Shown here in pieces: positions 2,976 to 10,808 of a DNA stretch of 25,410 bases. Below the pieces are notes generated by a model. It was not told the DNA's origin. It did no database searches and worked only from the letters and a program-made list of their open reading frames with translations. The position numbers were made by a program, and so were the translations under genes. Numbering within the stretch: the stretch's first letter is position 1; each line of letters starts with the position of its first letter. Origin of the DNA: a virus. Location of the stretch: the IMG/VR virus record IMGVR_UViG_3300042446_002259, positions 1 to 25,410 of that record; one strand, written 5' to 3'.

Positions 2976-3263
2976 ATGACAGCAACCGATTGGGCTCAAT
3001 TTATTCTTGCTTTGCTTTCAATCGGCGCAATTATAATTGGTGCAATTCGCTGGTACATAAAGATTCAAGTTAAACCTATTGCCGAAGCCGTAGAGGATAT
3101 CAGAAAAGAAACTAAGACAAACGGCGGAACCTCAATGCGTGATGAAATTAAGTATATTAAACTTGAGCAAGAAAATGCTAGAGATAAAAGAAAAGCAACT
3201 AGTGATAAACTTGATCGTATGTACGATATTCTTTTAGAGTATGTTTCTAAGAATTCTAAATAA
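2976..3263 (+). CDS. Small membrane protein with coiled-coil tail (holin-like position)
   Basis: This 95-residue protein has one hydrophobic segment (about residues 8-26, AQFILALLSIGAIIIGAI) followed by a charged helical region. The TNGGTSMRDEI segment at 48-58 is typical of small actinophage membrane proteins; the rest (59-95) is highly charged and probably coiled coil. Such proteins are often annotated as holin-like or as minor structural membrane proteins. With a single transmembrane segment and a long cytoplasmic helix, a lysis accessory role is possible but not shown. The lysin-like gene is about 7 kb away. Expression is probably from a leaderless mRNA. Confidence 0.6.
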   Translation: MTATDWAQFILALLSIGAIIIGAIRWYIKIQVKPIAEAVEDIRKETKTNGGTSMRDEIKYIKLEQENARDKRKATSDKLDRMYDILLEYVSKNSK

Positions 3264-3444
3264 CTACTATATATAAACTATCTTTAAAAGACTTAACTAT
3301 AGTATATTCTTTCTTATATATATTTAAGTATACACCAAAAGTTCTTTGTTTTAACTATTAATACCCTGGCTGATTATAACTCTTTTGTAACAATTCAAGT
3401 ATATAACTTTTTGTTATACCTTTATGTGTACTGGTATAAATTAA

Positions 3445-3453
3445 TGTTATAAT
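3445..3453 (+). promoter_or_regulatory. Extended -10 promoter for the hairpin RNA candidate
   Basis: Perfect TG-T-TATAAT. Counting 7 nt from the hexamer puts the start at 3461, the first base of the hairpin at 3461-3508. No coding start follows directly. Confidence 0.5.
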
Positions 3454-3460
3454 GTGAGGG

Positions 3461-3508
3461 CTGGCACTCTAAGTTCTACCCCCACCCCACTGCGCTTAGA
3501 GTGTCCAG
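3461..3508 (+). ncRNA. Hairpin RNA candidate with C-rich loop
   Basis: CTGGCACTCTAAG (3461-3473) pairs with CTTAGAGTGTCCAG (3495-3508) in a 13-bp stem with one bulged T. The 21-nt loop holds ACCCCCACCCCAC (3478-3490). A perfect extended -10 lies 7 nt upstream, so the RNA would begin at the stem base. No T-run follows, so it is not a terminator and read-through into the next gene is likely. C-rich hairpin loops are known from the actinobacterial 6C RNA, but only one such hairpin is present here. It could act as a small RNA or as a 5' stabilising structure. Confidence 0.45.
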
Positions 3509-3518
3509 TTACGAATTA

Positions 3519-3527
3519 TGGTATAAT
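3519..3527 (+). promoter_or_regulatory. Extended -10 promoter, leaderless type
   Basis: Perfect TG-G-TATAAT, 8 nt before the ATG at 3536 and without Shine-Dalgarno. It is the second extended -10 within 75 bp. Confidence 0.6.
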
Positions 3528-3535
3528 CTAATATT

Positions 3536-3952
3536 ATGTGTACTCCTACAATTGAAAAACTTGGTGCAACACCAGCCAACATCCAATGGAACGTTGTTCG
3601 TGGGGATACGGCAACTCTTAAGGTAGAGTTTTTTGAAGATGATGAAACCACCCCGTATGAGACTACCGCTTGGACATTTATAGCAACCTCATATGATCCA
3701 GTATCAGATGCTCTGGACTTACTAACGGTAGAGTCCTATGAAGATGGTGTTATTTATATTATTGCAAAAGCAAACATTACAAAGAACTGGGGACTTGGGA
3801 AATACAAGCCAGTTGTTGCAGAGTTAAGGTTTGACCTACAGGCTACACTGCCTGGAGATGGAGTATCAGGCGGTGGCGGAGATGAAGTTACCAAGTGGAC
3901 ACCAGTTGTTGGAACAATTTGTGTAATAGGCGATGTAAGCGGTACCCTATGA
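3536..3952 (+). CDS. Small beta-sandwich tail protein (LtfC-like), copy 1
   Basis: This 138-residue protein opens with a beta-rich domain of the pattern W-x-V-V-RGDT-x-x-L-x-V-x-F (about residues 18-32). It is related to the proteins at 4809-5162 and 11417-11878, which share the (R/I)GD(T/S) strand and a C-terminal strand ending near a G-x-I/C-x-V-x-G-x-V pattern. The domain resembles the LtfC/p132/Gp6 beta-sandwich seen in actinophage tail proteins, a tentative match from memory. A Gly-rich insert (GVSGGGGDE) near residue 112 is peculiar to this copy. It probably belongs to the baseplate or fibre attachment. The gene is predicted leaderless, and its stop overlaps the next ATG (ATGA at 3949-3952). 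Confidence 0.6.
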   Translation: MCTPTIEKLGATPANIQWNVVRGDTATLKVEFFEDDETTPYETTAWTFIATSYDPVSDALDLLTVESYEDGVIYIIAKANITKNWGLGKYKPVVAELRFDLQATLPGDGVSGGGGDEVTKWTPVVGTICVIGDVSGTL

Positions 3953-10727: not shown

Positions 10728-10748
10728 AATAAAAACCTCCTAGAGACT

Positions 10749-10772
10749 AAAAATGCTACTTGTTAGTAGCAT
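10749..10772 (-). promoter_or_regulatory. 5'-leader hairpin upstream of the lysin gene
   Basis: On the - strand ATGCTAC (10772-10766) and GTAGCAT (10759-10753) form a perfect 7-bp stem with loop TAACAA, followed by TTTT. The predicted transcription start is at about 10772, the first base of the stem. It could be a 5' stabiliser or an attenuator-type terminator. Confidence 0.45.
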
Positions 10773-10778
10773 GTATTA

Positions 10779-10808
10779 ATTATAACATGAATTTGGCTCC
10801 AAAGTCAA
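10779..10808 (-). promoter_or_regulatory. Consensus -35/-10 promoter for the lysin gene
   Basis: On the - strand TTGACT (10808-10803), 18-nt spacer, TG-T-TATAAT (hexamer 10784-10779). This is the best housekeeping-sigma-type promoter in the window and is divergent to the + strand promoter at 10855-10863. Confidence 0.65.

Follow-up and report, generated by a model that had tools for sequence, protein, structure and literature searches.

A hairpin with a C-rich, G-free loop behind an extended −10 promoter is very likely a new regulatory RNA of tailed phages

In the 25,410-base IMG/VR virus record analysed here over its whole length (hereafter the window), we identified a hairpin with a C-rich loop, placed directly behind its own promoter. 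We consider it very likely that this hairpin is a genuine regulatory RNA, as yet undescribed. The computational analysis established its promoter, its structure, the selection on the plus strand, the constraint on its loop, its presence as a single copy and its independence from the downstream gene. We file the hairpin as a new phage-encoded RNA family within an already known general type, that of small RNAs with a C-rich loop.

A hairpin between two promoters

In the window, the locus consists of a promoter (P1), the hairpin (3460-3509) and a second promoter (P2), and is flanked by the genes at 2976-3263 and 3536-3952. P1, TGTTATAAT at 3445-3453 on the plus strand, is a perfect match to the extended −10, as an initial annotation of this DNA had reported, and the −35 consensus is absent from P1 across the hairpin family. 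With the last T of the −10 taken as position −7, this spacing predicts that transcription starts on the plus strand at 3460, which is the seventh base after the −10 and lies at the stem foot. This predicted start is one base before the 3461 that had been proposed. Among 91 distinct aligned members of the family, the first stem base is the seventh after the −10, which is the standard +1, in 60 and the eighth or ninth in 30. When the hairpin was sought without demanding a promoter, the −10 was still present at each true case among the matches listed, the sole deviations there being TGTTAGAAT and TGTTAAAAT, both in one clade. Moreover, TGnTATAAT sites are nearly all intergenic in three genomes of the group (22/25, 26/26 and 21/22), which backs both P1 and P2 as real promoters. 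At the sequence level, the hairpin has its own promoter at a fixed distance, as is characteristic of an autonomous small RNA gene. Upstream of P1, an inverted repeat, TATAAC-TTTTT-GTTATA, is found at 3402-3418 (no strand assigned) and may be an operator. Indeed, 47 of 88 members carry a repeat of the form ATAAC-N3-7-GTTA in the 125 nt before P1, against 1% in mononucleotide shuffles, which hints at regulation through a possible regulator site.

The stem is formed on the plus strand by a 5′ arm at 3461-3473 (CUGG followed by CACUCUAAG) and a 3′ arm at 3495-3508, which comprises CUUAGAGUG at 3495-3503, a bulged U at 3504 and CCAG at 3505-3508. Between them lies a 21-nt loop, UUCUACCCCCACCCCACUGCG (3474-3494, plus strand), C-rich and free of G in its apical part, that holds ACCCCCACCCC at 3478-3488. 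G3459 and G3460 are able to add two G-U pairs with U3510 and U3509. The segment 3461-3510 folds with −19.4 kcal/mol (z = −6.0), and none of 200 shuffles folded equally well; the 13-bp stem with one bulge (U3504) and the 21-nt loop with ACCCCCACCCC, as first described, are therefore confirmed far above chance.

Behind the stem, positions 1 to 7 are mostly T, with A as the runner-up (91 members), and this U-rich stretch is consistent with a possible intrinsic-terminator tail. In the window, the corresponding segment, TTACGAATTA (3509-3518, plus strand), is weak: this tail of the window's clade is a poor terminator tail, so that read-through is possible. P2, TGGTATAAT at 3519-3527 on the plus strand, was correctly assigned from the outset to the next gene, whose ATG at 3536 lies 8 nt behind the −10 of P2 and which is thus nearly leaderless. 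This gene (3536-3952, plus strand; 138 aa, weak match to PHROG 1084) lies outside the RNA and is given as context. Neither a Shine-Dalgarno (SD) sequence nor an open reading frame is visible in the interval from the hairpin to the ATG. In the window and in the L320-L337 genomes, extended −10 elements of the form TGnTATAAT without a −35 are found, many of them directly before an ATG, and numerous structural genes therefore appear leaderless or nearly so. Such ATG-proximal sites number 15-17 per genome and many later genes thus have their own promoters.

Conservation and covariation in related viruses

The P1-hairpin unit of the window recurs in related IMG/VR loci in at least 147 distinct versions. 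Among 80 homologous loci collected via the protein of the downstream gene, the order promoter-hairpin-promoter is kept in nearly all; the exceptions are due to a contig end or to an inserted gene (L032 and L033), and the genomes of these last two loci retain the hairpin farther upstream, by about 0.85 kb (L110 and L163). DNA-pattern scans brought many further members, all such numbers being lower bounds, and the covariance model R1 found exactly one strong copy per record in 13 of 13 records of 88-112 kb. The unit and its loop remain when the downstream gene is swapped (L085, L110, L140, L158, L163, L165, L169, L185, L338 and L340), and the unit is always co-directional with what follows. In bacterial genomes, a strict pattern gave a single chance match, in a coding gene of a Verrucomicrobiota metagenome-assembled genome; blastn with the unit gave no real match among described phages, and in the lake actinophage DSL-LC01 the matches of R1 did not exceed chance. 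The unit is kept across a large and diverse group of freshwater (lake) tailed phages that probably infect actinobacteria.

Compensatory changes in relatives had been set beforehand as the test of the hairpin, and they were found: in the 91 distinct aligned members, 12 of the 13 stem pairs show double changes with pairing kept. Double-change cells number 133; shuffles give 37, and sliding the pairing partners along the alignment, a control that preserves relatedness, gives no more than 35. In this same control, the share of paired cells, 93.6% for the true partners, drops to 28-52%, and the covariation score does not exceed 0.098, as against 0.436. Since this alignment was fitted to the covariance model, a separate check was made with MAFFT free of any structure; on that alignment, RNAalifold predicted ten pairs, eight of which carry double changes. 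Furthermore, wobbles are strongly asymmetric, with 104 G-U against 22 A-C or C-A over all pairs and 40 G-U against 0 A-C over the eight pairs never unpaired in any sequence, counts that are not phylogenetically independent. Such an excess of G-U over A-C indicates selection on the plus-strand RNA, as a DNA palindrome would show no such preference. The compensatory changes fit one structure, on the transcribed strand, as is expected of a structured noncoding RNA. Altogether, these results support the initial proposal of a real structured phage RNA that starts at a promoter-defined +1 and is independent of the next gene.

Host, loop and known RNAs

The portal protein encoded in the window is nearest, at 45-47% identity, to those of Streptomyces phages, Muntaha and NootNoot among them; the class II ribonucleotide reductase is nearest to those of mycobacteriophage Gaia and DSL-LC01 (60%), and the WhiB turn motif GVWGG is encoded in several genomes belonging to this group. 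From these three features, the host of the hairpin phages is likely to be found among actinobacteria. The unit stands at the head of a long co-directional block of structural genes, and the turning point of the cumulative GC skew lies within about 3-12 kb of the hairpin. A role as a replication-origin RNA was set aside, as the turn simply follows the switch in gene orientation.

The 147 distinct hairpins, which have 51 distinct 5′ arms and 15-18 pairs as folded, show a stem remodelled by matched mutations around a C-rich, G-free loop that stays. The apical loop measures 12-20 nt and is composed of 64% C, 20% A, 16% U and 0% G; an internal-loop G occurs in 2 of the 147 members, the other 145 being free of it. 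Typical loops are UCUCUACCCACCCCCACU and UACCCCCACCCCACU, and GC/GC closing pairs are present in many clades. The N of the loop end ACNGC is changed in 11 of 100 aligned members. In the window, the loop end CCCCACUGC (3485-3493) has GCAGUGGGG as its reverse complement, a sequence that we take to be part of a conserved 16S rRNA region near E. coli position 355; this complementarity is probably a coincidence. A G-quadruplex on the opposite strand was also considered and rejected, as only two G runs are present.

In Rfam, the window has no match at the gathering threshold, and the window region and seven related loci do not match 6C RNA (RF01066) at E values up to 10. The initial caution against calling the hairpin a 6C RNA was thus well placed, as a single hairpin is seen and Rfam gives no match. 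The phage RNA shares with 6C RNA, known in mycobacteria as B11, its small size, a C-rich hairpin loop, the actinobacterial setting and a plausible pairing with G tracts (PMC10470900). However, 6C RNA has two hairpins whose loops each contain about six C in a row, whereas the phage unit has one hairpin with C runs split by A, a stem that begins at +1 and a phage origin. In mycobacteria, the C-rich loops of B11 repress via a six-G tract in the 5′ UTR of eccB4, and a compensatory mutation restores the effect (PMC10470900).

The unit also recalls other RNAs. Like HK022 put RNA and the lambda PR′-tR′ RNA, it would be a short structured RNA that opens an operon just downstream of a phage promoter; the lambda PR′ RNA stops at tR′ and put RNA modifies the polymerase. 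It differs from both by its single C-rich loop, by an independent promoter within about 10 nt and by its exchangeable downstream gene. With 5′-terminal stabilising mRNA hairpins it shares a stem that begins at +1, but it has neither an SD sequence nor an open reading frame behind it and its loop sequence is constrained. As in intrinsic terminators, the stem is stable and, in most members, leads into a U-rich stretch, yet the unit has a long, conserved C-rich loop and its own promoter immediately upstream. Within a limited literature search, no account of a phage RNA of this type appeared.

Other structured leaders were noticed in these phages. At L320:2472-2532, a promoter and a +1 hairpin stand before a phage HSP20 gene (PF00011, E 4e-17); this leader also occurs at 57276 of G004 (L328), at 44967 of G005 (L470) and at 51061 on the minus strand of G007 (L476). 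In most of these leaders, a second hairpin folds the GGGG ribosome-binding site (UUAUUCGCUUGAAAGGGGAAUAA); they look like ROSE-type RNA thermometers, and no Rfam family matches them. On the minus strand of the window, at 10735-10790, a lysis-type gene with an SLT domain has a hairpin, CAUGCUACUAACAAGUAGCAU, starting from the predicted +1. Different stems, such as UGAGACC/GGUCUCA, stand at apparently the same place in other genomes, which suggests compensatory change.

Possible functions of the hairpin RNA

We infer transcription, termination and action in trans as follows. RNA polymerase would start at P1 and the RNA would open directly with the stem, its paired 5′ end being expected to give it stability. 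It would probably terminate at about 50-65 nt, within the U-rich stretch that follows the stem. The open C-rich loop would then most likely act in trans by pairing with G-rich phage or host RNA in the manner of 6C/B11. An autonomous phage noncoding RNA of this size, which displays a C-rich loop and perhaps acts on G-rich RNA as 6C/B11 do, is favoured by the covariation, the wobble asymmetry, the −10 at each true hairpin listed, the stem at +1, the U-rich tail of most members, the single copy, the exchange of the downstream gene, the loop constraint, the absence of a visible SD sequence or open reading frame behind the hairpin and the analogy with B11; we give this reading about an even chance. 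Against this autonomous trans-acting RNA, the poor terminator tail of the window allows for read-through, and a fixed place at the head of the structural block would also suit a role in cis.

The search for targets bears on the same question. GGGGG is found near the start of about 3% of genes, 8 times the background, and is concentrated in DUF6065-like accessory genes. However, SD sequences with G tracts occur at the same or a higher rate in the hairpin-negative actinophage records G018, G033 and G044, and they were rejected as specific targets of the loop since they are equally common where the hairpin is absent. In three fully read phage genomes, no extended complement of the loop is conserved as a leader, and the top matches to the loop complement include the coding motif GVWGG of WhiB type and other coding sequence. 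The proposed titration of G-rich ribosome-binding sites is therefore not established. The DUF6065-like genes (653 and 7664 in the window; L373-L384) often have GGGGG ribosome-binding sites with diverged flanks, and GGGGG tracts before genes are frequent across freshwater actinophages.

The main rival is a leader acting in cis as an attenuator or antitermination element of the structural operon, so ranked because the unit heads a long structural block. The RNA from P1 would halt at the hairpin and U tract until a factor bound to the loop permits read-through, or the hairpin would alter the polymerase as put RNA does. The co-directional block, the unit's constant orientation with the following genes and the terminator-like form of a hairpin with a U-rich tail all speak for it. 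Nevertheless, we regard such a leader as unlikely, since P2 within about 10 nt and the many later promoters make long-range read-through seem needless; moreover, put RNA carries two hairpins. It is distinctly unlikely that the RNA serves as a decoy that captures a host protein with affinity for single-stranded C-rich sequence, be it Rho or some other factor of termination, decay or translation: the loop is free of G, rich in pyrimidines and in YC dinucleotides, and the compact structure is expected to be stable, but the classical rut site is much longer than this loop, and a decoy would leave unexplained both the ACNGC end and the A that is conserved between C runs.

A stabilising function, by which the +1 hairpin protects the messenger that reads through from P1, is very improbable, even though other +1 hairpins do precede SLT-domain and HSP20 genes in these phages. 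Indeed, those leaders have an SD sequence and an open reading frame right behind them, the C-rich-loop hairpin has neither, and stabilisation alone does not call for conservation of a C-rich loop. The message stabilisation first suggested is likewise weakened by the nearly leaderless next start, which lies near the 5′ end of the P2 transcript, with no ribosome-binding site between. Finally, the long inverted repeat within a promoter region and the U-rich tail of most members could also suit a DNA-level element (cruciform, binding site or insulator) or a simple terminator in which the loop is incidental; strand-asymmetric wobbles, loop constraint and strict promoter spacing already disfavour this reading, which we hold to be extremely improbable.

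Returning to the autonomous trans-acting RNA, we propose, tentatively and at somewhat less than even chance, that the hairpin represents a new and widespread class of phage RNA with a G-free, C-rich loop that acts in trans to control host or phage RNA while freshwater actinobacteria are being infected, by a mechanism convergent with cellular 6C/B11. Phage regulatory RNAs have seldom been recognised beyond a few model phages. Owing to its strong compensatory evolution, the hairpin RNA is easy to find by covariance search, and it can be tested in newly cultured systems of freshwater actinobacterial phages (PMC10202952). If its loop acts like those of 6C/B11, phage infection would be tied to a central and poorly understood RNA mechanism of actinobacteria.
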